A stretch of DNA of 41,309 nucleotides from a virus. Position numbers and translations under genes: made by a program. Location: IMG/VR virus record IMGVR_UViG_3300025141_000236, positions 1 to 41,309 of that record. One strand, written 5' to 3'. Below are positions 5,515 through 39,112 of the stretch, piece by piece (within the stretch, counting starts at the first letter, position 1; each line of letters opens with the position of its first letter). The notes below the pieces were generated by a model, which saw only the letters and a program-made list of their open reading frames with translations, had not been told where the DNA came from and searched no databases.

Positions 5515-6264
5515 TTAACCATTTTCAAATTTATACCCAAATTTTTTTATTATTGGGCTAAATCTCTCTTCAACCAGTTTAATTGTTACTGGATCGTAGT
5601 ACTCTGAGTAATGTGTGCTTAATTTTCTTAAATTTGTCTTAAATCTGGGAACTGAATCAAACTTCACTCCTATCAAGTTACAAATATGCCTACAGTCTTC
5701 TTCTAGGCGTTCATATCTTATGGTGAAATCAATATCATCAGTATAAAATTTTTTAGATGCCCATGATAGCCAGTCCAGTGAAGATATTAATCCGTCTGAA
5801 TCTCCCCATGCAGTATCTGAAAATGATCCCAGGGTAAATAAAAATATTCTAAACTTTCTTATTAGGTCTATCCTACTGTCGTCTTTATTGGGAACTATAT
5901 CCTTTCCTCCCCACGACTTTCCGCTAAAAATACTCCACCACCAGTAGGATACACACATATCCCATGGGTTTCGAACTGCTGATATTTTTGTGTATTCACC
6001 CCAGCTGTCTCCCGTCTTATTATAGAGAATGTCTGGAGATGAATGAGGGTGAAATCTTGATAGCCCGTTTGACTGGTCTATATTATTTCTTGACCTGTAG
6101 GTTTCGAATATGTCACCGGTATCATCCCTGAGGTCTTTGTGAATTCCCGGGCCAGTGAGAAGATCGTCATCATCACACTCTCTGGAAAGCATTGCTTCGA
6201 TGCTAGTTCCAGCTACCTTCATTGGTTTAAAAAATATGAATTCTCTGTGATGACAGATTATCAT
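5515..6264 (-). CDS. Sulfotransferase family protein
   Basis: Predicted PAPS-dependent sulfotransferase of the Sulfotransfer_2/large sulfotransferase superfamily, 249 aa. The 5'-phosphosulfate-binding loop is FKPMKVAGTSIE (residues 12-23), with K13/K16 and the GTS turn. The 3'-phosphate-binding motif is SAVRNPWDMCVSYWW (95-109), with R98, N99, P100 and S106. A C-terminal RYERLEEDCRHICNLIGV segment is also usual in this family. The acceptor is unknown; likely targets would be virion glycans, host surface polysaccharide or a small metabolite. It begins on the base after the stop of the 64-aa gene, so the two are co-transcribed. It sits between capsid and neck genes, where T4 has no such gene, so it looks like an accessory (morphon) insertion. 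The short HFHPHSS-type region (about 70-76) may contribute to the acceptor pocket. Confidence 0.88.
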   Translation of the reverse strand: MIICHHREFIFFKPMKVAGTSIEAMLSRECDDDDLLTGPGIHKDLRDDTGDIFETYRSRNNIDQSNGLSRFHPHSSPDILYNKTGDSWGEYTKISAVRNPWDMCVSYWWWSIFSGKSWGGKDIVPNKDDSRIDLIRKFRIFLFTLGSFSDTAWGDSDGLISSLDWLSWASKKFYTDDIDFTIRYERLEEDCRHICNLIGVKFDSVPRFKTNLRKLSTHYSEYYDPVTIKLVEERFSPIIKKFGYKFENG

Positions 6265-7095: not shown

Positions 7096-9090
7096 TTAGA
7101 TGATGCTCATATCCATGACCGTAACGGTACCGTAGAAGTCAGCTCGAACCATTCTCTTGCCGTACCGAGTCATCACGCCCTTGCGAGGTGTGAAGTCTTC
7201 AGGAGCGAAGATTGTAGGAGTGACGATCAGCGGAACGTACGGAGCGTAGACATATCCTGTTTCCAGGTAGCTTCCACCCTTGTAGCCAACGAGGATCTTA
7301 TTCCGTGGGAAGTACGGATCCTTGTAAACCGTGAATCGATTACTAAGAGTTCCAATCGGTGCTGCACCCAGTGTGAATGGATTCCCTACCTGACCGTCGC
7401 CATCAAGGCTGTAGTTAGGCTTGTAGAGTACCGATGCCTCAAAGATTGTTGCAACTTCAGGCGAACATACGCAGAAGTTAGCAGATCCTCTCAGAGTCTT
7501 TCTGTGAATCTCATTAGCAACGTCGATGATTGTCTCAACGAGAGTCTCATACCATTCGCGGACAGTACCCGTGAAGGATGGATGTCCGGCAACTGTCGAA
7601 ACATTGTTAACTAGGTTACCATTCGTCTTATTAACGAATCTACCAGGTGCTCTAGACCAGTAGTAGTTAGCTCCCTTCGCCTGATTAAGAAGATCATTAA
7701 GGATCTCTCTATCAATTTCCAGAGCGATTTGCTCTGACAGGATCTGAGTGAGCTCAACCTCAGCGTCGAGGCTGTGGTAGGCATTCAAGTCCTGGGCGAG
7801 TTCTGGTGACCAGCGAGCGCGCAATTTGCGTGTTTGAGCCGTGACCGCAATAGACTCGATCTTGATATCAATCTCGGGAATATTAGGGGACGGTGTAGCA
7901 GCAAAGTTCGACTCAAAGGTCGGAATCGTTAGAACGTCACCTGCTCGAGTGTCAACGTTTAGAGTCGCACCCACAGCGTAAGAAGCTGTTAGGTTGTGAT
8001 CAGTTGTTGGCAATGGGGAGGTTGCGCCCAGGGTCGAAAGCGATCCCGATAAAACAACGAGCAGTGCAGCATTCGGAGTTGTCCTTGTTGCCATAGGAGC
8101 TGATGTAAACCGCCTTGTGTTAGAATTCCATGTTCCCAGCTGATTAAGTCTGCGAAGATTAAGAAGATTCGCACCAGCCTGGAATGGTTGAGTATCTCCC
8201 ACATTGAATTCATGCAGACCGCCTGCATTATTCACAATATCGAGACCAGCGCCACTATCTGCCTGTGAGTACAAAGAGAAATCATTGACCTGTGTTAAAT
8301 CAATATCTGCTGGCAGGGTGGATGCCTGGATAACCAGCAGCTGAAATTGACCGTCGGCGGCTGGTTGCCCTCTGGAAGAAAGATTGTCTGTGATGGTATC
8401 AATAACCTGAGGGTCAAATTGCAATATTCTTGCATCTGATCCCGTAGCTGCGCACCATGCACCAGCGTGGAGAACATTATCCTCGCTTCCACCGCCGTAT
8501 GCTCCAGAGGCTAAAAGACTCAGCTGTGCTCCAACTGCCCTAAGGTGAACCTTAGAATAAGATGCCCCAATGAGATCGTATTGACCGCCAACGGCTAGTG
8601 ATCCAGATTGAACCCCTCTACCTGTTGGAAGGTTGTAGATCGATTGTCCCTGAGTGTAGGTTTGAGCACCAGGAGTTGTTCCTGCTGCGCCTGTATTCAG
8701 TACAGAGTCACCACCAACGTTGGACCCGTAAGTGTAATCCAGGTAAAAGAGAAGACCAGAAGGAAGACTCATCGGCTGGATAGATACGAGCTCGTTAGAG
8801 ATCAATCCGCCGAATACACGACGAACGATTGGGAATGCGATATTGGTAAAGCCGCGGATATCACCCGAGGACGTACCAGCACCAGCACCTGTTCCAATGC
8901 TATTCTGCTCTCGCAGAAGCTGTGCAGCTTGATTTTCCAAAAGACGGGACATTATCTCCGCTTTTTGATCCTCAAGACCGCGGAGAAGGCCTGTTCGGCT
9001 CCATTTCTCCATGAGACGGTTGCCCTCAGCACCCACGTTTCGATCGCGGATACCCTCAGTCAACTGTTGTAGTGTGAACGACTTAGACAT
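7096..9090 (-). CDS. gp23: Major capsid protein gp23
   Basis: HK97-fold major head protein of the T4 family, 664 aa (T4 gp23 is 521). Recognised by the C-terminal block YAPYVPLIVTPTIFAPEDF, then TPRKGVMTRYGKRMVRADFYG, and by RKLRARWSPELAQDLNAYHS and LTQILSEQIALEIDREIL near residues 410-460. The first ~61 residues resemble the delta domain removed by gp21: an L-R-E site at 59-61 precedes QNSIGTGAG, matching the (L/I)xE cleavage rule. The stretch from about 125 to 395 is expanded relative to T4 and probably forms an enlarged surface insertion. A strong AAGGAG lies 8 bases before the ATG. The gene is visibly richer in G+C than its neighbours, as is common for highly expressed capsid genes. Confidence 0.96.
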   Translation of the reverse strand: MSKSFTLQQLTEGIRDRNVGAEGNRLMEKWSRTGLLRGLEDQKAEIMSRLLENQAAQLLREQNSIGTGAGAGTSSGDIRGFTNIAFPIVRRVFGGLISNELVSIQPMSLPSGLLFYLDYTYGSNVGGDSVLNTGAAGTTPGAQTYTQGQSIYNLPTGRGVQSGSLAVGGQYDLIGASYSKVHLRAVGAQLSLLASGAYGGGSEDNVLHAGAWCAATGSDARILQFDPQVIDTITDNLSSRGQPAADGQFQLLVIQASTLPADIDLTQVNDFSLYSQADSGAGLDIVNNAGGLHEFNVGDTQPFQAGANLLNLRRLNQLGTWNSNTRRFTSAPMATRTTPNAALLVVLSGSLSTLGATSPLPTTDHNLTASYAVGATLNVDTRAGDVLTIPTFESNFAATPSPNIPEIDIKIESIAVTAQTRKLRARWSPELAQDLNAYHSLDAEVELTQILSEQIALEIDREILNDLLNQAKGANYYWSRAPGRFVNKTNGNLVNNVSTVAGHPSFTGTVREWYETLVETIIDVANEIHRKTLRGSANFCVCSPEVATIFEASVLYKPNYSLDGDGQVGNPFTLGAAPIGTLSNRFTVYKDPYFPRNKILVGYKGGSYLETGYVYAPYVPLIVTPTIFAPEDFTPRKGVMTRYGKRMVRADFYGTVTVMDMSII

Positions 9091-16242: not shown

Positions 16243-17874
16243 TCACTTAACAACCCAATCCCACTCTTTCAATAATTTCAACTCTTGACGATTTTTCCAT
16301 GATGTGGGAAGTGAATTTCTCTTTGCTCCATCAGGATCTGTCCTGGGATCTCTAGTTGTGGAGCTATGGGGCCTTCCCTCTGTTATAGCTCCGGGCATAT
16401 CGTCGTATGTATTTCGTGTCATTTTCATGCTTTTTAGCATTGCATCATTCAGTGTCTTTGAGTTAATACTATAGTCTGATGAAGAATCGTATAACCATAT
16501 CCCTATTGCGAAGCTCATAACGAGATCATCATTGTATCCCTTCATAGCCCTTGCTTTATTGCCAGACCATGTAAAGGTCTTGAGCTCATCATAAAATCTA
16601 GTAGAATAAATTTTTATTTGCTTGTTTCGCAATATTTCTTCAAGCTTTGTGAGTATCAAGTTACGTGTCTTTCCGCTAGTAGTAAATCCAGCTAAATCCG
16701 TCTCTTTTGGTGGCACATAATCTCCAATAAAAAGTGCCTTTCTCCTCTTGTGGTAGAGGGTGGGATAGTTTAATTCCTTGAGCTTTAGAATTGTCGCATA
16801 TCCATAGCTATTATTTTCTGGACATAGCAGCGCCTTATTATATTTTAAGCCGAATTCACTTAATAGTTCGGCAAATCTATCCGGGGGTATTTTTCCCTTA
16901 TATTCTGCGACACACTCACCGCTATCAACATCAATTATATGAAAGGTGGAAAAATCCCTAGCATCGCCACGGGCAATATCTGCAGACATAATGTATCTAT
17001 GCTCAGAAAGTGGATACTCCCATATCCATACATTCCTATCAAATCCAACTCTCTCTCTGGGTGGTTTGCACATCTCTCGTATCCATTCTATATCATTTGA
17101 TGATAGGAATGTTTCCCCAGATGACGCAAAATCACACAGATACTCTTGAGATATCTGTCTGTCGGATAGATTTTTTGTTGTTTTTTGAAACCACTCCTCA
17201 CCCCTCTCTGGATGAACATCCCAGGGAAGCTTTATAGATTTAAACTCATTTAAACCAGCAGCGGCATCAGTATACAATTTATAATATTGTCCGCCAACTC
17301 CGTTAGGGGTTGACAAAATTATAACGCGGCCACCTGTTGAAATAGTAGGATAGAGTCCCATCCATAGCTCGTCAAAATTTCTTACAAACGCAGCCTCGTC
17401 AATAATAAGAAGTGATAGTGCTTCTGATCTTCCTGCATCATCAGATGTGGGAATAGCCTTAATTGATGATCCATGACTGAATTCTATTAGTTGTTTATTA
17501 TTTGTTATTATTTCAGGCAAGACTAGCCACTTTGGTAAGCTTCTAATCATAGTCTTGACTTTTGTGATGAAGTTTTGAGCCACACTAAGCTTTGTTGCAA
17601 TAACAAGAATGTTTTTATCTTTCTGAAAAATAGCCAGCCATACTGCGTATGCTGCGGAAAGTGTTGACATACCTAGCTGTCTTGACTTTAAAATTATATT
17701 GAATCTCTCATCAATAAAGCTTTGCACACACTCATCTTGAAATTGGTATGTGTCAAATTTAATTAAACCCCTGACAGGATGTTGAATTTTTGTGTAAGAG
17801 TTGAAGAAATAAATTGGGTCCCTGCCGCACTTGACAATCTCTTTCACCTGTAGTGATTTATTAATTTTTGACAT
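16243..17874 (-). CDS. gp17: Terminase large subunit gp17
   Basis: DNA-packaging motor ATPase and headful nuclease, 543 aa (T4 gp17 is 610). ATPase domain: deviant Walker A KSRQLGMST (63-71), lacking the usual lysine after the glycine; Walker B LLIIDEAAF (155-163); coupling motif III LSTPNG (187-192). RNase H-like nuclease domain: SADIARGD with D299, LCPENNSYG with E353, and YNDDLVMSF with D449/D450. Together these form the two-metal acidic triad. The C-terminal tail after about residue 490 is Ser/Thr/Pro-rich. The start overlaps the upstream stop by one base (TAATG). Confidence 0.97.
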   Translation of the reverse strand: MSKINKSLQVKEIVKCGRDPIYFFNSYTKIQHPVRGLIKFDTYQFQDECVQSFIDERFNIILKSRQLGMSTLSAAYAVWLAIFQKDKNILVIATKLSVAQNFITKVKTMIRSLPKWLVLPEIITNNKQLIEFSHGSSIKAIPTSDDAGRSEALSLLIIDEAAFVRNFDELWMGLYPTISTGGRVIILSTPNGVGGQYYKLYTDAAAGLNEFKSIKLPWDVHPERGEEWFQKTTKNLSDRQISQEYLCDFASSGETFLSSNDIEWIREMCKPPRERVGFDRNVWIWEYPLSEHRYIMSADIARGDARDFSTFHIIDVDSGECVAEYKGKIPPDRFAELLSEFGLKYNKALLCPENNSYGYATILKLKELNYPTLYHKRRKALFIGDYVPPKETDLAGFTTSGKTRNLILTKLEEILRNKQIKIYSTRFYDELKTFTWSGNKARAMKGYNDDLVMSFAIGIWLYDSSSDYSINSKTLNDAMLKSMKMTRNTYDDMPGAITEGRPHSSTTRDPRTDPDGAKRNSLPTSWKNRQELKLLKEWDWVVK

Positions 17875-18278: not shown

Positions 18279-18584
18279 CTAATTATCCTCATCGCGAAAT
18301 AAATTCAAGGATTGTTCTCTAATCCTCTTCTTATAATTATTAAGTACCTTATCACTAGGCCTCCATCCGCTATCCCATTTATTTCTCATGGGCTGTGCGA
18401 AGGCGATTTCACACTCATAGCAGCAATTAAATCTTTGATGAGAACTAAAATCCTCTTGTGTCTTCATTACAAATTCACACACAGGGCAAAAAAACGGTAA
18501 TCCCATCTGATTATCATCATCACACATTATTATGACAGAAAATAATTCTAAATCATCTGCTAAATACTTTTGCGTCTTTTTCAT
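18279..18584 (-). CDS. Small zinc-finger protein (101 aa)
   Basis: Probable zinc-binding protein of unknown role. Metal ligands are visible as FFCPVCEFVM (CxxC, 33-36), H49 within DFSSHQRF, and NCCYECEIAF (C54/C55 and C58). This gives a CxxC...H...CxxC zinc-ribbon or C2H2-like module, followed by KWDSGWRPSDK and a basic helix (KKRIREQSLNLF). Its first 32 bases overlap the 3' end of the Mre11-Rad50 fusion gene, which implies coupled translation. It could be a DNA- or RNA-polymerase-binding regulator, or a recombination or packaging accessory; context cannot separate these. Confidence 0.7.
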   Translation of the reverse strand: MKKTQKYLADDLELFSVIIMCDDDNQMGLPFFCPVCEFVMKTQEDFSSHQRFNCCYECEIAFAQPMRNKWDSGWRPSDKVLNNYKKRIREQSLNLFRDEDN

Positions 18585-21500
18585 GCTTGGTTATCTCCAG
18601 TGAGTTGTCTACAGCGTCTTTAATAGCGTCTACATGAGAAATTACAACTATATTTCGGAACCATTTCTTTAGAGACTCTAGTAGCCTACTGCATGCTTCA
18701 ATATTAGTATCATCTAGTGCTCCAAAACCCTCATCAATAATAAGCATATTTGTTTTTGTCAAAGATGATACATTTATAAGTGCAACTCTAATGGCTAAAG
18801 ATGACATCATTTTTTCCATGCCGGATGCAAGCTCAATTATTCTTCGGCTATCTCCGTAGTTGATGTAAATATCCATAGAGTTAGATTCGGGATCAGCTTC
18901 AAGCTCAACTGTGAATCCGGTGACCCCCTGGAGTATTTTCATAATTTCAGCATTGATTAACGGGAGCTGTGACATCATGATTTGAAGAGGAATTCCCTTT
19001 TTAGACGTTGCCTGCATGAAAAGATCATATGCAATTAGCTCGCCCTTAATGTTATCAAACTCCCTTCTCTCTTTATTTGTTCTCTTTATTTCTGAAGATA
19101 GTTCGACAATTTTTTCAAATCGATCTAGGCGAATCTTATCAAGATTTTTAATGTCCCCCTCAATCGACACTATTGATGAGCGTATTGCAGCGGAGGGATT
19201 TTCCTCCTCTTCCACTAATCGTGATGTCATATCTTCTAGAGATTCTTTCAATTTTAAAAGATCAGAGAGAGATATATTAATTTCATTTATTACATTGTTA
19301 AGATCGACTTTTAGATTTGAAATATCAATAGATAGTTCATTCTCCTCCTTTGCTAGAGAGTCGTGCTTAAAAATCTTTTCCTCTATTTCTTCTCCCAATA
19401 TTAAATCTAGAGAAATTTTTGCGGAATTTAAAGAATCAATAGATCTTTCAACATTTTTTCTCTGATCCGCTATTCTCTTCTTGTCTTCATGAGAATCTTT
19501 TATAAACTTGCATGAAGGAAATTTATCCTCACATGGAACCTCTCTAAGTTTAGAAATAGACGCCTCCTGCCTGTCCAGCTCCCTTTTCTGATTCTCACTG
19601 CTGTGTCTCAGTTCAATAAATGTTGTCTCTAATTTTTTCTGAGCGTCTCTTTTTTCCCATAATTCATCTATATCAAAATCAGACCGGACTAATCTAATAC
19701 TTGTTCGATTTTTGTCCTTTGCAGAAATTTTACTTTGAATTTCCTCCCTATTCTCCTTCAGAAGGCTTATGCTTTCCCTTTTATTCGCAATTGTCTTTTC
19801 TTGAGAAGTAATTTCCACTCTCGTTACAATATCGGGATTTCCCGAAACAGCAAGTTGAACATTTAGAAGCTTGAGAGTCTCTCTCTTTTGACCAATATCT
19901 CTCTCCACAGACTTAAGTGATTTTTTATTTTCTGATATGTTAAATTTTAAATCATCTATTTTTTCATCCCAGTCAATATCAGGATATCGCTTTGATCTAT
20001 TTCTTGTATCATAGGATTCGGTCTTAGCAGTCTCATACATCTTTTCAAAAACTCCAAGATCAAGAAACTTTGTAAGAATCATCTTTCTTGAAGATGCTCC
20101 CTCCTTTATAAAGGTATTCATACCTCCCTGTGATGCGAGAGAGGTCATTAAAAAATCTTCAGATGTCCCTATCATTCTTCTTAGTGTCTTTTCAGTTTCT
20201 CTTCTCTGCTCTTCTGTTAAATCCTCATCAATAATTCCCTCATCGGTAATCTTATGAAGCTGTAGAGATGTCGATGCATACACTTCCCCTTTTCTCGTTT
20301 GATGCTTTATTGTCGACCTCGTGACTCTTAGGTTTTCTCCGTTTAAAGATAGATCTACTGTTGCATTGCAAAAATCCTTTCTATTGTTAATAATGTGAAG
20401 GTTTTTAATAGATCCCCTGTCTGTGGTATTAAAAAGACCATACATTAAGGAGCCTATTATAGATGATTTTCCATTTGTATTTTTTCCAAAAATTCCAGTT
20501 ATTCCAGGAAGATTATCAAAATTAACTACATTTCCTTCGCCATACGAAAAAAGATTATCAAACTTAAACGAACTAACATGCCATCTGGAGTTTCTTAAAA
20601 CCTCTCCATCATTTGAAAGCTGAGAGGTGTATCTATCTATCAAATTATCAAATTTTGCTAATACTTCATCTCCAATGTCCCCCTCTCGATAGAAGTCACG
20701 TATAAGTCGCTTGTGTGTTTTTGAATCTCGAAGATTCTCCTTTGTTAGAGATTTTCCTGCCGACTTTATTTTTGAAAAATCAAATGATGACTCAGACTTA
20801 AAGACGACCTCAGACGCTGATTTTTCTCTTTTGAGGTCATATTGTAATCTTTTAATATCAGATTGAATCAAGACTGCGTTAGATCTTATTCTAAATCTTG
20901 ACCCATCTGGAAGGCCTAGTGACTTCTGAATAATATCATCTACTGAGCCATTCCAGCCTAACGTGATAAATGGCTTGAAGTGAGGTATTTCAAAAAACTC
21001 TACATCAAAGTCGTCCTTTCCCCTAATATCCCAAAATAAAAATCCCTTTCCGGGACTTTCTCCATAATTTTGCTGAATTGTTGATCCTGGGTATGCCATA
21101 GTCTTTTTGCTATTTAAAAACTGTCTTCTATGTATATCACCCAAAAGGGCGAAATCAAATTCATTAAAAAAGTCATCGGTTACGTCGCCTTCGATGCTAA
21201 AATTTATATCAGTCTTGGATCCCCATACAGCTCCATGAAATAGTGCAATATTTATCTTATCGCTATCCGGAATCACCTTTATCCACCCATCTTCATCAAA
21301 GCATGAAAAAACACACCAGTTAAATTCTTCATGTCCGGCTATGGGATATACGCCTGACTTTTTATAGAGGTAAAGATTTGGATTATTTAGTGCAGAAATG
21401 ATCGGAGATATTGCATCTTGCCTATCTTTATTAAGCATCAGACCGTCGTGGTTGCCAAGAATTATGTGCGTGGGTGCAATATCAGATAATTCGCTAAACC

Positions 21501-21690
21501 ACCAGGAAAGGCTATCTATCAGCTCTGGAGATATACCCTGCGTCTTGTTGTGTACTATGTCACCGCCTACATAAATCACATCAGGCTGGAGCTCCCTAGC
21601 CTTATTAAAAAAATGAGAAAAAGACTCTTTATATTCATCATGCCTTGACAGCCCTCTCCAGTGAATGTCAGCTATGTGAATTATTTTCAT
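18553..21690 (-). CDS. gp47-gp46: Fused Mre11/SbcD nuclease and Rad50/SbcC ATPase (gp47-gp46 fusion)
   Basis: Single 1045-aa polypeptide joining the two subunits that T4 encodes as separate genes 47 and 46. It would process DNA ends for recombination-dependent replication and host DNA breakdown. Residues 1-340 are a metallophosphoesterase with IADIHW (D8, H10), VGGDIVH (D44), LGNHD (N80, H81), FHGAVWG (H152) and LGDIHRR (D185, H187). Residues 365-1045 are the SMC-type ATPase: Walker A GIFGKNTNGKSS (399-410), long coiled coil, a CEDKFPSC hook (720-727), second coil, signature ASGMEKM (about 955-961), Walker B MLIIDEGFGALDD (982-994) and H-loop VISHVD (H1019). There is no internal stop or start signal between the halves, so this is a true fusion. 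The ATG has no clear Shine-Dalgarno. Confidence 0.94.
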   Translation of the reverse strand: MKIIHIADIHWRGLSRHDEYKESFSHFFNKARELQPDVIYVGGDIVHNKTQGISPELIDSLSWWFSELSDIAPTHIILGNHDGLMLNKDRQDAISPIISALNNPNLYLYKKSGVYPIAGHEEFNWCVFSCFDEDGWIKVIPDSDKINIALFHGAVWGSKTDINFSIEGDVTDDFFNEFDFALLGDIHRRQFLNSKKTMAYPGSTIQQNYGESPGKGFLFWDIRGKDDFDVEFFEIPHFKPFITLGWNGSVDDIIQKSLGLPDGSRFRIRSNAVLIQSDIKRLQYDLKREKSASEVVFKSESSFDFSKIKSAGKSLTKENLRDSKTHKRLIRDFYREGDIGDEVLAKFDNLIDRYTSQLSNDGEVLRNSRWHVSSFKFDNLFSYGEGNVVNFDNLPGITGIFGKNTNGKSSIIGSLMYGLFNTTDRGSIKNLHIINNRKDFCNATVDLSLNGENLRVTRSTIKHQTRKGEVYASTSLQLHKITDEGIIDEDLTEEQRRETEKTLRRMIGTSEDFLMTSLASQGGMNTFIKEGASSRKMILTKFLDLGVFEKMYETAKTESYDTRNRSKRYPDIDWDEKIDDLKFNISENKKSLKSVERDIGQKRETLKLLNVQLAVSGNPDIVTRVEITSQEKTIANKRESISLLKENREEIQSKISAKDKNRTSIRLVRSDFDIDELWEKRDAQKKLETTFIELRHSSENQKRELDRQEASISKLREVPCEDKFPSCKFIKDSHEDKKRIADQRKNVERSIDSLNSAKISLDLILGEEIEEKIFKHDSLAKEENELSIDISNLKVDLNNVINEINISLSDLLKLKESLEDMTSRLVEEEENPSAAIRSSIVSIEGDIKNLDKIRLDRFEKIVELSSEIKRTNKERREFDNIKGELIAYDLFMQATSKKGIPLQIMMSQLPLINAEIMKILQGVTGFTVELEADPESNSMDIYINYGDSRRIIELASGMEKMMSSLAIRVALINVSSLTKTNMLIIDEGFGALDDTNIEACSRLLESLKKWFRNIVVISHVDAIKDAVDNSLEITKHEKDAKVFSR

Positions 21691-22003: not shown

Positions 22004-22969
22004 CTAGAATAATGATCCCGTCCTTATTGAAGCTATTTTTTCTTTTATCGATCTTTCTCTTGTCCACAGCGCAGAATTTTCTCTAGCTTGTTTAAACTCT
22101 TCTTTCGACATTTCTCCCACATCGCTGAACCTTCCTAGCGGTAAAATCCTTACCGGGCAGCAGTATTCTGACAGCAGGTTTGCTATTTTTAGTGATTTTT
22201 TTTGCATGTCTCCATCCAGTGCGAGCAAGACAGGCGTGTTATGAGAAACAATTTTTTTGAATAAAAATGAAGCCCTGCTTAGACTTGACCCTAATAGGCA
22301 CGTGGAATTTTGATCACACTTAAAAAGATCAAAAGGTCCCTCAACTATTGTGAGCTCACTTTTCCAGTCTATATTAATCTCGTTAAAAATAATTTCTGTC
22401 TTTTTTGCCCTAGAATTAACGTATTTTGGAAATATCTTATCATCAATTGTACGTGCAGAAAAATAGTTTAACTCTCCCTCTGAATCAAATGAGGGAATAA
22501 TAATTCTCCTTCTAAATCGGCCACTTGTCGAAGATCCCACTTTAAAATACCATAAATCTTTTAAATTAATTCCCCTACCTTTAAGATACCTTATACAGTC
22601 TCTGACATCTGGATCCTTTGACTCTCTTTCTAGGCATAGGGGAATGAATCCTTTGGGCAATTCTACTTTGGGATCTTCTTCTGTAAGGCTTGGTTCCCCC
22701 ATGCTGGTATCTCCCAGAAACCTCTCCTTAAATTCTCTTCCCAGATCAGCTGATACGTGATTAATGAGGATCCGATAGAGATCTTTTCCCTTTACTCCGC
22801 ACACCCAGCAATGGCAATTCCAATTATCTACATTAATAGAAAACTTCTTCTTCTTAGATCCGCTGCCGCACTTTGGACAAGAGGCTGCAACATTGACTCC
22901 GTCACGGGCTACAGCAATCTCTCCAAGTGCCCTTCTAATAAAGCTTATTTTTGATGTAAATGTTTCCAC
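22004..22969 (-). CDS. gp61: DNA primase, gp61-like (zinc finger + TOPRIM)
   Basis: Synthesises RNA primers for lagging-strand replication. It has 321 aa (T4 gp61 is 342). The N-terminal zinc-binding domain has CPKCG (C31, C34) and NCHCWVCGVKG (C54, C57), the CHC2-type arrangement of DnaG-family primases. The TOPRIM core follows: LTIVEGPFDLF with E210, G211 and D214, then LLALDGDMQ with D252/D254, the acidic metal ligands. RRRIIIPSFDSEGELNYFSA before it is also typical of primases. The start is GTG at 22969 without a good Shine-Dalgarno. No helicase (gp41) is visible beside it. It follows the RuvC-like gene by 23 bases. Confidence 0.9.
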   Translation of the reverse strand: METFTSKISFIRRALGEIAVARDGVNVAASCPKCGSGSKKKKFSINVDNWNCHCWVCGVKGKDLYRILINHVSADLGREFKERFLGDTSMGEPSLTEEDPKVELPKGFIPLCLERESKDPDVRDCIRYLKGRGINLKDLWYFKVGSSTSGRFRRRIIIPSFDSEGELNYFSARTIDDKIFPKYVNSRAKKTEIIFNEINIDWKSELTIVEGPFDLFKCDQNSTCLLGSSLSRASFLFKKIVSHNTPVLLALDGDMQKKSLKIANLLSEYCCPVRILPLGRFSDVGEMSKEEFKQARENSALWTRERSIKEKIASIRTGSLF

Positions 22970-22992: not shown

Positions 22993-23544
22993 CTAAGTGT
23001 TCATTAGTGCTGCTGATGCTATTACGTACGCATCAGCCATATCATAGCATCCGCTTACGAGAACTACCTGATCCTTTCTTGGTCCGCTTTTTAAAGTTTT
23101 AACTGGCCACGTATATCCTGTACCAATTAGATCTTTTGACACCCACTCCACAACCTGCTCCTTGGTAGGTTTTCCTCCATCTTTTTTTCGAACTAGTTTG
23201 AGCCCTAAGCTCTTTCTAGCCCTGTTGACATTTAAAAACCTTGGCTCAAAGCCAAACTCTTCAAAACACAGGTATGAAACAATTCCGTTGAATCGTGCTA
23301 ATGTAGAGAGTGTTTGAGCAGAAGAAAATCCCGACCTAAATGATTGAAGATTTTCTTCAATGCAGACTGCATCTATGTCATTTAGAGAATTCAACGTCTC
23401 TAGCTCTTTTTTAACAGCCTGAGATTTTTTAAAAACGTTCTTTTCAGACTTAAGGTCAATATATCCCATTGATGATAATGTGCCCTCATCATCTAATAGA
23501 CACCACCCAGTGCAGCTAGTTGAAACATCTAGTCCCAGTATCAT
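22993..23544 (-). CDS. RuvC-like Holliday junction resolvase / RNase H-fold nuclease
   Basis: Predicted structure-specific endonuclease that resolves branched DNA, 183 aa (E. coli RuvC is 173). The RNase H-fold acidic residues are visible: GLDVSTSCTGW (D6), VCIEENLQSF (E63/E64) and YDMADAYVIA (D168, D171). The last is the D..DA motif of RuvC-like enzymes. T4 uses the unrelated endonuclease VII (gp49) for this job, so this phage may have replaced it, though gp49 could lie outside the window. The start shares a one-base TAATG overlap with the stop of the preceding 813-aa virion gene, tying a replication enzyme to a structural gene. Confidence 0.85.
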   Translation of the reverse strand: MILGLDVSTSCTGWCLLDDEGTLSSMGYIDLKSEKNVFKKSQAVKKELETLNSLNDIDAVCIEENLQSFRSGFSSAQTLSTLARFNGIVSYLCFEEFGFEPRFLNVNRARKSLGLKLVRKKDGGKPTKEQVVEWVSKDLIGTGYTWPVKTLKSGPRKDQVVLVSGCYDMADAYVIASAALMNT

Positions 23545-30222: not shown

Positions 30223-33200
30223 TCACAATATCAGCTTTGCCAATCCTGGTGTATCGGAGGTCGATGCTAGTTCCTCTATATCTACTTCTGTCATTATCGA
30301 TGCTGTTGCGAAATAGTGATAATACTCTGGGACGCATGACTGATCAGAAGATGTAGCAATAGAATCCTCATCTAGCTGGACGACAACCTTTCTTGCGTCT
30401 GTCCTGCTTTTTCCAGCAATTGCGTCTGCAGGTATCCCGCCAACTCCTTCGGGAGATATATCCCTTCCAGCAAAATCTCCCACACTTTCAAACTTGCTCT
30501 CAGTTGCATTCCATGAATTATCATCTACCAGAATACAAAAAACCCTATCAAATATTTTTGGAAAAACTATCTTATTTTTGTATTTATCGGGGCTGAATAA
30601 TATTGATCTAGCTACCTCAGAAATAACTCTTTCAAATGTTATTCCATCTGCGAGATCATTAGCTTCGTATTCCATCTCCATAAGATCTACAAAGCTTTCA
30701 AATATTTTCGCCCTTCCTCCTGAAAATTGGGAGCTATTTGTTGGAATAGATGTACGGCTATGTGAAAATTGAAATGTGTCCTCCTCTATGTCAATTCCCG
30801 TAGTCAGTAAAAGATATAATTTTAAATAGCTATCGATGACTGTGTTGTTAAAAATCTGCTTGAGAGCATTTTTATTATTATTATAGCTAGAATTAACACT
30901 AACAGGAGCATTTCCCACAGCATCAACTAAATTTTCTTGTGAAACTGTGGCACTTGAGCTAAATCTATCTGCAGTTGAAGTAGAATATGCAGCTCCCTCC
31001 GTCGTCTCTATCACGCCCCATCTTCCAAGAGTTTTAACCGATATTCCGCTAAAGAGGTCTGCTAGTGACGAAGGCCCTGGAGCTGGAGGGAGAGAGTCTT
31101 TTCCTGAATTTCCCGGTAGCATGCCTACTCCAGGTATTGACCCATACCCGACTGGTAGGTTTTTCCCCGGAAGTGTTTTAATTACTGATGAGTCAATTCC
31201 AGTACTTCCCCCGCCTGGTCTCTTAAAGCCTGCGGCTCCTTTTAAGCCCCCTCCGCCTCCGTTGCCGTCATCACCTAAAAGTTGCAACGGATTATCATTT
31301 TCCAAATTTAAAACGATTCCAGCATTTACATCAAGAAGTGATTCCGATGATAAACCATTGTTAATGATAAATTTAGAAACATCAAAAATATACTCTTGAA
31401 CCTCTATTGTATTATCATTTGTAACCAGATTTTTTCTATAGAGTGAGATTTTAATAATATTTGATTTATCAAATCTATAATCCCCGTCTTTTGAACTAGA
31501 AGCAGACGCTCGTAGAAATTTCATCATTCCCGTAGGTATTCCCATTGAAAAAATCCACTTTCTTCCAGAACTATTGGATTTTTTCCATGCTGGAAGCTGA
31601 CACATCAAGCCTAGTGCCTTCGCCTGGTGGGTGGATATCGCCTCTCCAGAAGGCAGGTGTGGAGCATATCTACTAGCAGAACCAAGAGATTCATACATAG
31701 CTCGACACAGCCTCAATTGATCCTCTCCAGCAAGAGACAATATGCCATTTAGCTCATCTATACTTAAATTTGAAACATTAGAGATATCTGAAACTGAGAG
31801 ACTTTGAAATGTAGATAAAATTGAGTTAATCGTGCTTATCACTAGCTCACACACATCTGCTAGATAGGAAAAAGAATTCCATGCGAGAATATCCCATTCC
31901 ATCTGAGGGATCACATACGTGTAGTAGAGACTCTTAATATCATTAATTTCATCCCTTCGTCCGAGCCCTGTCTTCCAATTCCATGTAGCATCATCATATG
32001 CTAATTCGCCCCTAAGCATCGCTGCATCTGTGGATGGTGTATTTGATTTTTCATTATTTGCTTTCGATAGTGAGGCTACGGCTCTCTTACTTGGTGACCA
32101 TAGTATTCCAAATAAGTTTGATGTGCCCGAACCAGCCCACTCCTCGCCAGCTGCAACGTCATCTGTGGACGCCTTCGACGCTCCCTGGTTGTTTGTCCCC
32201 CCTGTCTGTGAAGATGCACCTTTAACAAACTGACCGTGAGGAAGGTAGACAGCAAATCTTTGAGTCTGCTGTACAATCATCATGAAAAAAATGTATCCCA
32301 CAATTAGTCTAGACTCTCTAGATAGTCCCAGAGAAGATGTTAGTTCATACGGATTTTTATCAAATCCCACGCCCGTTGACTTCATGACCCTAATGTCCCA
32401 CTGCCACACTGCGCGTGATACTGCATCCAGTATTGCGTCATCAAGAGTTCGCGGATCAGTTGAAGTCACGTCCTCAGCATTTTGAATTATATCATCTGGG
32501 TCAGTAGAGTCTCCGCTATAGGGTTGCAATAAGGCATCTTTCAGCCAATTTTGCCACGAGGGAATATATGCATGGTGGCTCCCGTGACCCACTGTATCAG
32601 CAGCCTCATACCACACACCATCATAATCTGTGCTCACGGTATTGGGAAGAACACCAAGATTAACCTGTTTTCCGTCTAAATCGTATCCATACCCATAGTA
32701 TCTTATCTCATGATCGTCACCCTCTTCTCCAAATTGAGTTTGAAGCTGATCGGAGTCGTTAACAGCCTTAACAACGTCAAATCCAAAAAAATTAGCTATT
32801 TTATCACCCCACACATCATCTATCTTGTTCATAATAACGGGTGTAGAATTTTGAAAATACCTAGTTCTATCTCTTAGCATGAAATACTTTAAATATTCCC
32901 ATGCCATGTCTCCATCCTGTAGAGCTGCTATTAAAAATAGAGGAGCAACAGAATTAGCCTTATTTGATCCTGCTTTAGATGACATCATGTCTTCACGAAA
33001 ATATTTTTGAATAGCCTCAGAAGTTTCCTCAAATATTCTCTGTGTCAGGCCGGCGGCGGCTACAGTGCTCTGAGAAAGAGAATCACTATTAAACCCTGTC
33101 ATTCTGACATCTGCGCCGTCATTAGCAGCTAGCAGCAACTTGTATATATCATCTTCTTGTAAGCCAGTCCAGTTTAGAGGATCCACCTCTCCAATATCGG

Positions 33201-35229
33201 ATGGCACAAATGAATTAACCATATGTGTTCCAACAACGTCTAGCATAGTCTCCAGGCTGAATTTAAAACTATTTAATTTTGCCAGATTATCGCTAAAATC
33301 TGCGTCTTGAAAAAAGTTATCAAGGTAATACTTCATTCCATCAAGCGTGACGTTTGCCCCAGCATTGGGTATTGTGTCTCCGGTTCCCAGATTAAAATTT
33401 GCAACCGATTCATTTTTGGATGGATCTCCCACTTGCGGTCTTAATCCCTTAACACCATATGCTCCCTTAGATTGATCTCCCACAGCGACTGATTTAAATG
33501 ATGAAAGGTTAGACTGCGGCTTGAGAGGGTTCCACCCAATTAGGTCTGTCAGCAAATCCTCCGTAGCGACAGATTCCAAAGCTAGCGACTCTGCAGCATC
33601 TTCTGTCGAACCTATAGCAACACACTGATTGATAAAGTCTCTTGCGACCATATAGAGGCACGTAGGATCCTTTTGAGTAACTATCTTGTCCCAAAGAACC
33701 ATAAAGTCTCCCTTTGTAAACTCTACAGTTCCCACTAGGTCACTATCGATATAATCGCCAACAGTTCCTCCAGTTGCTACTATTTTTGTATACTCGTATT
33801 TTCCAAGCTGCTCTATAGCTGCATAGTCTCCCCCTTTTCCACTGAATAATTCCTTATCTATTCCTGGGACTGTTCCCTTATCGAACGGTGTACCAGACTG
33901 TCCGTTTGATTGAAGATTCGAACCAAGCAGCTTATAGTCCTTAAGTGGGACTACAGTTCTTCCCACGCAATCAGCCAAAAGTTGCATGACTATTGCAGTG
34001 TTAGAAGCGTTATACCACCACTCATCGGGACAAGAAAGCTGCTCTCTAAGATAAATCTCTAGGGAAAGTTTGCCTGGAGCGATATTTTTAATAAAATCAG
34101 TATTATACCTTGAAAAAACTCCATCAATAGCCTTTCCCACGGTGGAAGAATTAAATCCATCATAAAAATTTGTCTTAATTGAAACAGCAGATCGTAGATC
34201 TTGTACTCCCAGAGCTGTTGATAAAAAGTCTAGAATTAATTTTGAATTCAAGATCTCCTGGTCGTATTCATCAATCATCTGCTGACTATTGGCCGCAGAT
34301 GAGATGATTCTCTCCTGTTTCTTTTGAGGAGCATTGGGATTTATAGACTTTCCTGTCAGCCTGACACCTCCCGACGAAATAGATTCTAGGCCTAGCTCCA
34401 TCTTCGAACATAGTGCACTGATAGCTTCAGCGTATCTTAATTGTTTGAGCTGGGTATGCATATCAATAAGCTCTCCTGCACCTGTAGAATTATATACTGT
34501 GTCTAGATTTATAAATGAAGACTCTAAAGGTGGGAGAAACTCAAAGCACCCAATAATCTCAGGTCTTAAAAGAGAGATACCGTACTCAGACAACCTTGCC
34601 TGTACAGAGGAGTCGAGATTTGCATCATAAAAATTATCATCTATTTGTACCGTATCGCCTTTCATGTTTTCTTTTAAGATGTCAGTTGCCGCCAGATAAT
34701 CTATATTTGACAAACCACCTGCAACGACGCCTGCTGACTTTGAAGATCCCCCAGCATATGTTTTCTTAGCTGTGGAAAATATCATCGGCTTCACACTAGC
34801 ATCAGCAGAAAAATCGGCATCTGCTAGGCCGAAATTGAAAACTCCAGTAGCTACACCGCCAGCTCCCTTTGCCACAGAGGGAGGGGAGCCAGCTCCCTTC
34901 ATAGATGGAGAAGAGACTCGTGTTTCACTTGTACTTGATTCCCAATGCTCAGTTGAGGGAGTGCCGCCTCTACTTCCCCCTCTGCCCCCTATTCCCTGCC
35001 TGCGTGCGACACCGGCTATAGTCGTTGCCCCCGAGTATGTCTCATTTCCTACAGGACCGTACGCAACTCCAGCTTCATTTTCGTAATAACCTCCCTCACC
35101 TGACGAATCACCGTGGGCATTTGGATCAATTACTCCCTCATAGTCCGAATCTTTTTCGATGACGACATCACTTTGAATATAGACATTGCTGCCTCCTACT
35201 GCGCCATCACTTTTTATTCCGCCAGCCAT
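30223..35229 (-). CDS. Giant unassigned virion protein (1668 aa)
   Basis: Largest gene in the window; function not recognised. The N-terminal ~150 residues are Gly/Ser-rich and low-complexity (ARRQGIGGRGGSRGGTPS). A second Gly-rich linker (GDDGNGGGGGLKGAAGF) lies near residue 1320. Between them are mainly helical regions with scattered Trp (DEWWYNASNTAIVMQLLADC, GDMAWEYLKYFMLRDRTRYF). No signal peptide, transmembrane pair, lysozyme, peptidase or ATPase motif stands out. It shares one-base TAATG overlap with the upstream 886-aa gene. The position in the tail block and the size suggest a baseplate hub/wedge or tape-measure-like component, but long coiled-coil periodicity is lacking, so tape measure is unlikely. 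Confidence 0.7.
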   Translation of the reverse strand: MAGGIKSDGAVGGSNVYIQSDVVIEKDSDYEGVIDPNAHGDSSGEGGYYENEAGVAYGPVGNETYSGATTIAGVARRQGIGGRGGSRGGTPSTEHWESSTSETRVSSPSMKGAGSPPSVAKGAGGVATGVFNFGLADADFSADASVKPMIFSTAKKTYAGGSSKSAGVVAGGLSNIDYLAATDILKENMKGDTVQIDDNFYDANLDSSVQARLSEYGISLLRPEIIGCFEFLPPLESSFINLDTVYNSTGAGELIDMHTQLKQLRYAEAISALCSKMELGLESISSGGVRLTGKSINPNAPQKKQERIISSAANSQQMIDEYDQEILNSKLILDFLSTALGVQDLRSAVSIKTNFYDGFNSSTVGKAIDGVFSRYNTDFIKNIAPGKLSLEIYLREQLSCPDEWWYNASNTAIVMQLLADCVGRTVVPLKDYKLLGSNLQSNGQSGTPFDKGTVPGIDKELFSGKGGDYAAIEQLGKYEYTKIVATGGTVGDYIDSDLVGTVEFTKGDFMVLWDKIVTQKDPTCLYMVARDFINQCVAIGSTEDAAESLALESVATEDLLTDLIGWNPLKPQSNLSSFKSVAVGDQSKGAYGVKGLRPQVGDPSKNESVANFNLGTGDTIPNAGANVTLDGMKYYLDNFFQDADFSDNLAKLNSFKFSLETMLDVVGTHMVNSFVPSDIGEVDPLNWTGLQEDDIYKLLLAANDGADVRMTGFNSDSLSQSTVAAAGLTQRIFEETSEAIQKYFREDMMSSKAGSNKANSVAPLFLIAALQDGDMAWEYLKYFMLRDRTRYFQNSTPVIMNKIDDVWGDKIANFFGFDVVKAVNDSDQLQTQFGEEGDDHEIRYYGYGYDLDGKQVNLGVLPNTVSTDYDGVWYEAADTVGHGSHHAYIPSWQNWLKDALLQPYSGDSTDPDDIIQNAEDVTSTDPRTLDDAILDAVSRAVWQWDIRVMKSTGVGFDKNPYELTSSLGLSRESRLIVGYIFFMMIVQQTQRFAVYLPHGQFVKGASSQTGGTNNQGASKASTDDVAAGEEWAGSGTSNLFGILWSPSKRAVASLSKANNEKSNTPSTDAAMLRGELAYDDATWNWKTGLGRRDEINDIKSLYYTYVIPQMEWDILAWNSFSYLADVCELVISTINSILSTFQSLSVSDISNVSNLSIDELNGILSLAGEDQLRLCRAMYESLGSASRYAPHLPSGEAISTHQAKALGLMCQLPAWKKSNSSGRKWIFSMGIPTGMMKFLRASASSSKDGDYRFDKSNIIKISLYRKNLVTNDNTIEVQEYIFDVSKFIINNGLSSESLLDVNAGIVLNLENDNPLQLLGDDGNGGGGGLKGAAGFKRPGGGSTGIDSSVIKTLPGKNLPVGYGSIPGVGMLPGNSGKDSLPPAPGPSSLADLFSGISVKTLGRWGVIETTEGAAYSTSTADRFSSSATVSQENLVDAVGNAPVSVNSSYNNNKNALKQIFNNTVIDSYLKLYLLLTTGIDIEEDTFQFSHSRTSIPTNSSQFSGGRAKIFESFVDLMEMEYEANDLADGITFERVISEVARSILFSPDKYKNKIVFPKIFDRVFCILVDDNSWNATESKFESVGDFAGRDISPEGVGGIPADAIAGKSRTDARKVVVQLDEDSIATSSDQSCVPEYYHYFATASIMTEVDIEELASTSDTPGLAKLIL

Positions 35230-37889
35230 TAATTACCCCTTAGTTTTGTAACCTGTCTATCCCTCATTATCGTCGATCCGAGAGAAATTTCCTTTCCTGT
35301 CTCTCCGTCAAGAAATATTGGGATTGCAGAGTAAACTATTCTACCAACGTAATTTTTGTTCAAATAGTCAATAAATATCAAATTATTATTATCACTTTTA
35401 TGACATGCGCCACATATAGACTTCACACCCTGTTTTTCACACAATATGACAAATGAGTCAATTAATTCCCTTTTGGACTGCGAGCCTGAGCCGACACTCA
35501 ATCTCAGAACAGGTCCGCGATTGGCTGAGTAGGTTAAGGATGTTAAGCTCAATGATATAGGAGATCCCCTCAGGTTAATATCAAAATCAAAGTAATCTCC
35601 CGAAAAAAACTCACGCAATGGATCTGAGGGGGATGAGGGAATTACGCCTCTAGTTAGAGATGGTTTAGAAAAATATTTATTTGCCTTAGAAGTATTATAT
35701 GAAATTGATGAAGCTTGGATAGAAATGTCCTCCACTGTTTCCTGCAATGCTATTCTTCGCAGCTTAGCGTATGTTGTGGGACTTCGTAGAACTCCGGGGT
35801 CACTTAAAACAGACTTGAACGTCGTAGATGACTTTAGAGAATCAAATGCTATCTCAGGTGCCATCAATGTGGGAGATATTCTATAAATGTATGATATTCC
35901 GGATGTGGGCGGGCCTGCTGCTGTCAATAGTCCGTTATCGACTACAGTTTCACCCTCTGGAAACACCCCTAAATAATCGGTCTCACCGCTGTCATAGTTA
36001 AACCTCTCGATATCAAAAAATATTAAATTCCTTAGATTATTTTTAACACTATCCAGATCTTCTTCCCAAAGATCACTTAGGCCAGCTGATTCTAGAGCGG
36101 CCTTAATCTTATCAGCAGTTGTCTGCTTTATATTCCATGCTATTTTAAAGCTAACTTTATTGTTAGATGTATCAATTGAAATCGGCTTGCACGAAATAAA
36201 ATTCATGGGAGGATTAAAGACTTCAAATCTAGATATAGTCGATATAGACGAAACTCCCTCCCTTAAAAATAATCTTGCACGATACTCATACTGATGACCA
36301 GCTGTGACATTTTCATCCTCAACGGAGTATCTCAGCGGAGACTGTGCTGACGCAGACTGCTTTCTCTGCAAGAACTTTCCGTCATTAACAGATGTAATGA
36401 CAGGTGTAAAATCCCTCTCTCTTCGTGTAATATTTCTTCTCTCAAAAAACACACCTGTGACATTTTCAGATAAATTTTTTATCTGGAGAATTATTCCGCC
36501 AAGAGATGGCTTTGTGTAAACTGAAGCTTTTGTCACTAAGAAGGATTTTGTGCCTATCAAAGAAGATGAAAAATTATTGAATGTCCTTCCATCCTTTGTT
36601 ATGGGAATTGCTCTCATTATGACCATCTTTTCCTTTGCACCTGAAATAGGAATGCGTAATCTTCTGCTTATTGATATCTTATTTTTATTTTGAATGCTGG
36701 ACGGTTTAAATGTTGTTATCTTTCTGAATTTTGACTTGAGAAAATCTTGCGTTTCACTCACCCTTCTTATATAGATGTCATATCCAAAAATATAAGGATC
36801 AATATTGGACAGAGTTACATTAGCGATCTTTCTAACTGATGCGCGAGAGAATGACAGCTTTGATGAAATAATCTCAGAGGGTGCCAAATAGTCTTCCATC
36901 TTTTGTCTGTGATTGATTTTCTTAGTGATAATTTGCTCCATCTTTCCAAGCTTATCAATCATTGCGACCTCTAAGAAAAATTCATTTGCATTAGATAGGT
37001 CGGCTAGATCTATGTTTATCTTAATTGGAATTCTTCTTACTGTATTGGTAACTGTCTTGGTGATTCCCACAACTGCACCAGACGACATCTGTGAAAGAGA
37101 TGTTGAGACCTCTCTTGTCTGAGCCCTCCCTTCAACAGCTTTTCTGAGGGAAAACATTATCTCATCGCTTCTCCTATTCCCAGATTTAACATTTGGACTC
37201 ACGAAACATCCTCCGCGAGCGGGATCTACGGGAGATGTACTTATAGAGGGAAATAAATTAGAAGATGGATCTCTGGCAGATGAAAGTGATCTCTGGTAGT
37301 TTTCAATAAAGCCTGATGAGTTTATATATCCAGTGCTATTTTCTGTTACATTTCTCTGGGATAGCTGATAATTTTTACCAGCTTTTCTGCTATCATCCAC
37401 AGAAACTATTTCTATCTTCTTAGTGGTTCCAAATAATTGTCTGTCATTGAGCTGATTTGCCTTATTCAATTTAAAAAAATCAAAGTGATCCAAAAGACTC
37501 ACATTCACTCTAGAGAGGAGACCATCTCTATCTCCCACAACTATGTAAGTCTTATTGTCCTTCATCTTTCCATAAACTGTTGATATTACAGTCTTCGGGC
37601 TATTAGAGCCCATTGTCGAAAATAGATCAAACTTCTTTCTATTTATCTTGCTTCTAACACTCACTCGAACATTGAATAATTCAGAATTTATTGCTTTTCT
37701 TAAATCTACATTAAAGAAAAATACATAATGAGCTATCCTTCTAGTGACCTTGGAGATTGCGGGCTCTTCATTACCTTCGATATTATCTGATGATATAAAA
37801 AATTCATCATGTGAAATATTCTCTATGTGAGAATCATCAAATTTTGAATCTGATATTATAGAGTATCGTTTTGTCTTTTTTGTCTTCAT
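35229..37889 (-). CDS. Virion protein with repeated FN3-like domains (886 aa)
   Basis: Probable tail/baseplate protein. The N-terminus is charged (MKTKKTKRYSIISDSKFDDS). At least one FN3-like domain is clear at about 460-560 (LGGIILQIKNLSENVTGVFF, then GHQYEYRARLFLREGVSSIS). Similar beta-sandwich patterns precede it (about 350-450, with FGYDIYIRRVSETQDF) and follow it (about 565-690, with GISYIYRISPTLMAPEI). A fourth, C-terminal repeat ends GRIVYSAIPIFLDGETG. Both boundaries are one-base TAATG overlaps, so it is translated in series with its neighbours. FN3 arrays usually act as spacers or weak glycan binders on tails; the exact role is unknown. Confidence 0.7.
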   Translation of the reverse strand: MKTKKTKRYSIISDSKFDDSHIENISHDEFFISSDNIEGNEEPAISKVTRRIAHYVFFFNVDLRKAINSELFNVRVSVRSKINRKKFDLFSTMGSNSPKTVISTVYGKMKDNKTYIVVGDRDGLLSRVNVSLLDHFDFFKLNKANQLNDRQLFGTTKKIEIVSVDDSRKAGKNYQLSQRNVTENSTGYINSSGFIENYQRSLSSARDPSSNLFPSISTSPVDPARGGCFVSPNVKSGNRRSDEIMFSLRKAVEGRAQTREVSTSLSQMSSGAVVGITKTVTNTVRRIPIKINIDLADLSNANEFFLEVAMIDKLGKMEQIITKKINHRQKMEDYLAPSEIISSKLSFSRASVRKIANVTLSNIDPYIFGYDIYIRRVSETQDFLKSKFRKITTFKPSSIQNKNKISISRRLRIPISGAKEKMVIMRAIPITKDGRTFNNFSSSLIGTKSFLVTKASVYTKPSLGGIILQIKNLSENVTGVFFERRNITRRERDFTPVITSVNDGKFLQRKQSASAQSPLRYSVEDENVTAGHQYEYRARLFLREGVSSISTISRFEVFNPPMNFISCKPISIDTSNNKVSFKIAWNIKQTTADKIKAALESAGLSDLWEEDLDSVKNNLRNLIFFDIERFNYDSGETDYLGVFPEGETVVDNGLLTAAGPPTSGISYIYRISPTLMAPEIAFDSLKSSTTFKSVLSDPGVLRSPTTYAKLRRIALQETVEDISIQASSISYNTSKANKYFSKPSLTRGVIPSSPSDPLREFFSGDYFDFDINLRGSPISLSLTSLTYSANRGPVLRLSVGSGSQSKRELIDSFVILCEKQGVKSICGACHKSDNNNLIFIDYLNKNYVGRIVYSAIPIFLDGETGKEISLGSTIMRDRQVTKLRGN

Positions 37890-39064
37890 TAGTCCAGTAT
37901 TATTGTAAAAAGGTTGACGAATACAGGAACTTTAAATTCATTTAAAAATACCTTTCCTGCAAAAAATACGTGCTTATTAGGCCTAGATGTATCATTGCTA
38001 TCAGTAAACTCTCCAAAGTCAATTACATCTAGCTTCTTAAACTTTAGTGTATCACTATTGGCCTCAAACATTTGCATCACGATATTATTCATTTCCGATG
38101 TTTTGTTAAATGTCACAATACATCTTTCTCTAGGAACACCTATGGGAATGGCGTCCACACTCTCTCTAGTTGAAGATATTGATTTCTCTGACACCCTGAT
38201 ATCATTCGCCTCTTGCCACGTTGAAAATGGCAAATTTCTATCATTGGGAACAGAAGAATATCTATCTGGATCATTTCTAATCGAGCCATTTAGATTTTTA
38301 ATTACATCTGAATACTTTATCTCTCTTTGTGCCTCGCCTAGCGGCCTGTATGATCCCAAAAATGCCCTATTAAACCTCTTTTTTGAAGCAGCTATTGGAG
38401 CCCTCTTTAACATTGTCATTATTCTATTATTGGGTTCTACAACAAGGGGTGGGAGAAATTTAAAATTAGGAATGTGTGATAATCTTTTATCCAAAAATAA
38501 ACACTCAACTGCATCGATATCACAAATGGATGCATCGGGACCTCTAACAAATGGGAAGGAATTGGAAATTAAGTACTCAAAGCTCTCGGGATTAACCACA
38601 AAATTATTATAAATCCCGGAAGCTAAATTGTCTGATCCCAGCATGTAATTATCTTTAAAGTGGTCAATTGAAGATGTAACTATTCCGGAAGATAGACTGG
38701 CAAAATCACCGGAGCCGGACACAAATGTCCAGCTATTGATGTCACTTAGGCTGCTATTAGATCCTCTCTGGAATAGATCCTCTCCTATAATTGTTAGATC
38801 CTCATTAATAGGATAGCCCATTAGCTTTCCTGAATCATCTGTCTCAAAGGTTATAAAATCCTGCCGTCGTGTTCCCTGACACTCAAAATAAATTCTTTGA
38901 GTTGCATCATCTGCTGCGGAACCCTCACCCGCCTCATAAAAGGCTTCACCATCAGTTAAAGAGGCATACTCAATCCTTAATCTTCCTGCGGACATTTGTC
39001 TTCTTCCGCTCTCCGTCACAACGGCGTCCATTATTCGAGTCTTTTTATCAAGAATTCCAGCCAC
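37889..39064 (-). CDS. Conserved virion protein with LDxxT...DAVxT..GR module (391 aa)
   Basis: Function unknown, probably structural. I choose GTG at 39064 because AGGGGT lies 6 bases upstream and the product then begins VAGILDKKTRIMDAVVTESG, aligning with the paralogue at 27260-27967. An in-frame TTG at 39082 is the alternative. The opening module continues GRRQMSAGRLRIEYASLTD. A Ser/Asn-rich middle follows, then a region with FNRAFLGSYRPLGEAQREI and a beta-rich C-terminus (HVFFAGKVFLNEFKVPVFVN). Its stop overlaps the next start (TAATG). Confidence 0.7.
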   Translation of the reverse strand: MAGILDKKTRIMDAVVTESGRRQMSAGRLRIEYASLTDGEAFYEAGEGSAADDATQRIYFECQGTRRQDFITFETDDSGKLMGYPINEDLTIIGEDLFQRGSNSSLSDINSWTFVSGSGDFASLSSGIVTSSIDHFKDNYMLGSDNLASGIYNNFVVNPESFEYLISNSFPFVRGPDASICDIDAVECLFLDKRLSHIPNFKFLPPLVVEPNNRIMTMLKRAPIAASKKRFNRAFLGSYRPLGEAQREIKYSDVIKNLNGSIRNDPDRYSSVPNDRNLPFSTWQEANDIRVSEKSISSTRESVDAIPIGVPRERCIVTFNKTSEMNNIVMQMFEANSDTLKFKKLDVIDFGEFTDSNDTSRPNKHVFFAGKVFLNEFKVPVFVNLFTIILD

Positions 39065-39112
39065 TAAGTCACCCCTATGCAATAACTATTATGAAGTAAA
39101 AATATCATCATT

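Follow-up and report, generated by a model that had tools for sequence, protein, structure and literature searches.

Fusions of Mre11 and Rad50 into one polypeptide are already documented. Yoshida, Claverie and Ogata described in 2011 the Mimivirus protein R555, an Mre11/Rad50 fusion, together with a further twelve from bacteria, eukaryotes and a Bacillus phage (PMC3175470). The same study found hundreds of R555 homologues in aquatic metagenomes, many of which had phage genes (primases and endonucleases, for example) next to them and were overrepresented in viral size fractions, and a phage origin was proposed for some of these (PMC3175470). R555 is characterized by two substitutions in the nuclease, namely a His that ends motif II and an Asp that replaces the residue equivalent to His206 of P. 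furiosus, and a helix-loop-helix followed by a linker of 9-12 residues was argued to be compatible with a normal Mre11-Rad50 (MR) complex (PMC3175470). Several fusion events were argued in that work, for other taxa than those considered below (PMC3175470).

The window analysed here is the whole of a 41,309-nucleotide stretch (IMG/VR virus record IMGVR_UViG_3300025141_000236), which is the contig of a T4-superfamily myovirus with a Gp23 capsid protein, a gp15 stabiliser, a T4-type terminase and a portal. The fusion gene sits in a replication/recombination cluster, with a primase (22004..22969, minus strand; phrog_47, 3.8e-45) and a RuvC-like resolvase (22993..23544, minus strand; phrog_159, 2.5e-14) upstream and the large terminase (16243..17874, minus strand; PF03237, 2e-20; phrog_2, 3.5e-53) downstream. 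All three are conserved neighbours by synteny, and the order RuvC, primase, fusion, two small genes, terminase and portal is found in most marine relatives with sufficient contig. Among isolated phages, the closest terminases are those of the Flavobacterium immuto phages and of the Microcystis phage Mel-JY01, at about 43% identity. Elsewhere in the window, the Gp23-like major capsid protein (7096-9090, 664 aa) has the better of its two Gp23 stretches at residues 388-655 and a long N-terminal part largely without assignment, while a sulfotransferase-like protein (5515-6264; phrog_3347, 9.4e-09; Pfam Sulfotransfer_2 just below the cut-off) lies among the structural genes. Four large proteins encoded in series at 30223-41170 (1668, 886, 397 and 685 aa) have no match in PHROGs, and those of 397 and 685 aa have none in Pfam either.

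The gene at 18553..21690 (minus strand) is a single ORF with an ATG start that encodes 1045 aa, and it is confirmed as a genuine in-frame fusion of an Mre11/SbcD-like nuclease (residues 1-360) with a Rad50/SbcC-like ATPase (residues 370-1045). In Pfam, Metallophos is matched at residues 1-188 (1.9e-13), AAA_23 at residues 378-653 (4.4e-07) and SbcC_Walker_B at residues 952-1005 (1.4e-04, under the curated cut-off), and the protein belongs to phrog_77, SbcC-like (3.1e-46). The NCBIfam models sbcc and sbcd both match under their curated cut-offs, as expected since the fusion is a distant homologue. In parallel, a sequence search of the PDB matched the C-terminal part to Rad50/SbcC and the N-terminal part to SbcD/Mre11. 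As both halves are thus matched within one ORF, the fusion is real, and the sequence-only reading, which had placed an in-frame fusion here with the nuclease first and both catalytic halves present, is borne out.

An AlphaFold2 model of the chain (mean pLDDT 83.7, pTM 0.53, the placement of the domains relative to each other being unreliable) delineates the parts, all encoded on the minus strand. The nuclease and capping domains (residues 1-300; 20791..21690) are aligned by VIA-align to SbcD from S. aureus (7dog_B, Z 24.8) and E. coli (4m0v_A, Z 24.2). They are followed by a probable Rad50-binding helix-loop-helix (residues 323-360; 20611..20724), which is predicted as helices 323-333 and 341-359, is aligned in the relatives and takes its proposed role from T. 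maritima Mre11 (PMC3175470). The fusion junction is an inter-domain linker of conserved length (residues 361-369; 20584..20610), modelled as about 9 residues without helix or strand that connect helix 341-359 to strand 369-378. Rad50 lobe I with the Walker A motif (residues 370-543; 20062..20583) then leads into the coiled coil (residues 546-896; 19003..20055), whose long helices are predicted in two runs, the first spanning 546-567 through 674-717 and the second 731-765 through 832-895, giving arms of about 170 residues each with cysteines 720 and 727 at the tip. Lobe II (residues 900-1045; 18556..18993) carries the signature, Walker B and H-loop. For residues 370..1045 of the model, SbcC/Rad50 structures are retrieved at Z of about 26-29 (SbcC 7yzo_D, Z 28.8). 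In BFVD, the model is matched best by proteins of giant viruses, in alignments spanning the whole length (Tupanvirus, E 1.1e-53; Yasminevirus, Harvfovirus, Terrestrivirus and Catovirus), and the fusion of Tenacibaculum phage pT24 comes after them.

Our preferred reading, to which we give a probability of about 0.88, is that the gene encodes an R555-like single-chain Mre11-Rad50 (SbcDC) that is vertically inherited in marine T4-superfamily myoviruses, assembles in an M2R2-like manner and processes phage DNA ends. Following the argument made for R555 (PMC3175470), the helix-loop-helix and the linker of about 9 residues are compatible with a normal complex, and an ordinary M2R2-like complex is most likely. 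That the covalent link would constrain M2R2 assembly, as the sequence-only reading held, is conjectural. Two chains would pair via the Mre11 dimer interface and the ATP-driven engagement of the Rad50 heads, generating the usual head with two nucleases and two ATPases. Each linker would connect the Rad50-binding helices with the beginning of the Rad50 lobe in the same chain, so that the fusion would mainly ensure that both parts are made in equal amounts and assemble together. DNA would be tethered by the coiled coil and its cysteine hook, while the enzyme would process the ends of phage, and possibly host, DNA and feed recombination-dependent replication. A role in phage replication is suggested by analogy with T4 gp46/gp47.

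The catalytic motifs are those of both enzymes, with lineage-specific changes. The nuclease displays D8-x-H10, GD44xxH47 (GDIVH, 43-47), GNHD (79-82), H152 and GDIH (184-187), while the ATPase has Walker A at 402-409, Q521, the signature SGME at 956-959, Walker B at 983-987 and H1019. Among 70 aligned full-length proteins, the motif residues are kept in 70/70, the only exceptions being motif I and C720 with two gaps apiece, which excludes chance. In particular, G402, G407-S409 and Q521 are invariant, and H47 at the end of motif II, D185 of motif V, S956, G957, M958, E959, D986, E987 and H1019 are each found in 70/70. Substitution rates indicate purifying selection in the nuclease, the helix-loop-helix and linker, and the ATPase, for the pairs with an estimable dS. 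The fusion looks functional and is shared by the whole clade. Two points of the earlier description are to be refined. All five metal motifs claimed for the nuclease are present, but motif V is GDIH whereas T4 and most split homologues have GHxH, so that one metal-ligand His is changed to Asp. The ATPase has Walker A, Q-loop, signature, Walker B and H-loop, and in its hook C720 and C727 form CX6C rather than the apical CXXC typical of Rad50/SbcC; the assignment to Rad50 is made because of the fold and the ATPase motifs. The two cysteines are kept in 68/70 and 70/70 of the aligned proteins, respectively. The CX6C spacing (19510-19533, residues 720-727) is nearly invariant in the marine clade, and a split Moorella phage protein has a similar VPC-x7-C.

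These changes are the basis for the rival that survives best, according to which the enzyme is functionally shifted, with the motif V Asp and the altered signature modifying metal use and ATPase coupling relative to the MR of T4 and E. coli. The Asp is present in 27/27 aligned fusions compared with 2/14 split pairs, and the signature residue that precedes Glu, which makes the window protein SGME and not SGGE, is Met or Lys in 28/28 fusions of the tree set compared with 0/14 split pairs, which have Gly (Ala in one). However, Asp can ligate metal, lineage signatures can be neutral, and two split phage homologues have the Asp as well. Indeed, the Asp was rejected as a mark of fusions only, since the split pairs of Vibrio PVP21 and Edwardsiella ZHS carry it. 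A functional shift is thus possible but doubtful, and the two changes would best be regarded as lineage marks with a conjectural effect on the enzyme. Of the present findings, the Met/Lys substitution alone was absent from the literature searched, which covered few subscription journals. A broader idea is that the single-chain MR proteins of phages and giant viruses may form one old family with an altered core (Asp ligand, Met/Lys) and a coupling unlike that of all characterised MR complexes, and we regard it as similarly speculative.

The subunit ratio expected from the single-chain reading would differ if a separate Rad50 were made from an internal start alongside the full-length fusion, so that the working complex would hold more Rad50 than Mre11. 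Scattered in-frame starts do occur near the junction in some relatives, but almost none has a Shine-Dalgarno-like sequence, and no such start is conserved at a fixed position among the 70 aligned proteins. In the window itself, the sole candidate at the junction is a TTG at codon 350, again without a Shine-Dalgarno-like sequence. The sequences thus offer no conserved internal start that would point to separate Rad50 synthesis, and this alternative is improbable.

As for the origin of the fusion, a tree was built with 28 phage fusions and 14 split pairs, T4-like, Herelleviridae and Vibrio among them. One branch with support 100/100 divides all 28 fusions from the 14 split pairs, long branches being flagged, a topology that agrees with one old fusion event among the sampled phages. 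The suggestion that the fusion arose by loss of a T4-like stop/start overlap is unsupported, because T4 genes 47 and 46 are separated by 46.1 and 46.2. An independent recent fusion of T4-type gp47 and gp46 through such a loss could draw on the abutting 47-46 genes of some split phages (Vibrio PVP21, Aeromonas Ahp1), but it is very unlikely given the two intervening genes of T4 and the single clade in which all sampled fusions stand apart from the T4-like, Herelleviridae and Vibrio split pairs.

The sequence-only reading had also asked whether the 1045-aa fusion is unique. A search for relatives showed instead that it is common to a whole aquatic phage group, of a kind already described in 2011: a scan of IMG/VR gave, as its best 80 relatives, proteins of 41-74% identity on contigs from many sample series, and 80/80 have a single uninterrupted frame over the matched region with the same gene order. 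Such an already described fusion in all close relatives is the outcome that the sequence-only reading itself had named as counting against it. Artefactual joins may exist, as in Listeria phage LMTA-57, whose split sisters have one base more in the region where it is annotated with a single protein, but a sequencing or assembly artefact that joined separate gp47 and gp46 genes here is barely conceivable, being excluded for practical purposes by the 80/80 relatives with the same open frame and by the isolated phage Mel-JY01. The LMTA-57 case itself has the appearance of an isolated, possibly artefactual join, in contrast to the clade of the window.

The distribution of the fusion was followed in other collections. 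A search of 84,980 genomes for bacterial carriers gave three matches; two of these candidates (L091 and L092) show the same terminase/portal gene order as the phages and were set aside as phage contigs binned with MAGs, and the third (L093) is a 5.5-kb fragment. A plasmid search for the fusion gave weak, partial matches only. A second, separate MR was sought with phrog_77 in ten large related IMG/VR phage contigs, where the fusion and weak partial matches only were recovered; two of the ten encode additional metallophosphoesterases (224 and 256 aa). The gene is interrupted in some phages. In a 484-kb phage (LR756508; L085, 2000-6133), a 305-aa ORF whose product has a TnsA-like endonuclease domain (PF08722) splits the nuclease domain just past motif V and is probably a homing element. 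A second phage (L123, 3304-6544) is broken at about the same site past motif V by a short insert and a frame change. No Rfam intron was found in the interrupted copies.

Collectively, the explicit phage genomes back the idea of 2011 that many marine R555-like fusions are phage proteins. A natural single-chain MR would also ease mechanistic work, because two proteins otherwise have to be mixed to set the subunit ratio, and the metal-site and ABC-signature changes specific to the lineage offer a modest, testable lead.

Compared with known systems, the window protein is closest in design to the R555 type, with which it shares a nuclease-first single chain, a cap, a helix-loop-helix, a short linker, Rad50 and both R555 substitutions, while primase and endonuclease neighbours are shared with the R555-type metagenome scaffolds. 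Unlike R555, it has 1045 aa rather than 1351 aa, and the phage genome context is now explicit. Kinship with R555 itself is suggested by the published residue descriptions and by the structural matches of the model to other giant-virus proteins. Mel-JY01 likewise encodes a full-length fusion downstream of a primase (WWT39521.1, 30% identity over 1040 aa), but it is a Microcystis phage, its protein has a CXXC hook and the annotation is merely 'AAA domain containing protein'. The fusion of pT24 (BPT24_019) has the same GDIH motif V and SGME signature, but is distant and larger (1310 aa), with a longer coiled coil and a CXXC hook. T4 gp47/gp46 and E. coli SbcD/SbcC share both activities, the domain order and the folds with it, but as separate polypeptides, and T4 has a GHxH motif V, SEGE with Gly before the signature Glu, and a CXXC hook. 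All in all, the fusion of the window is neither unique nor new, and belongs to the kind of fusion described in 2011.
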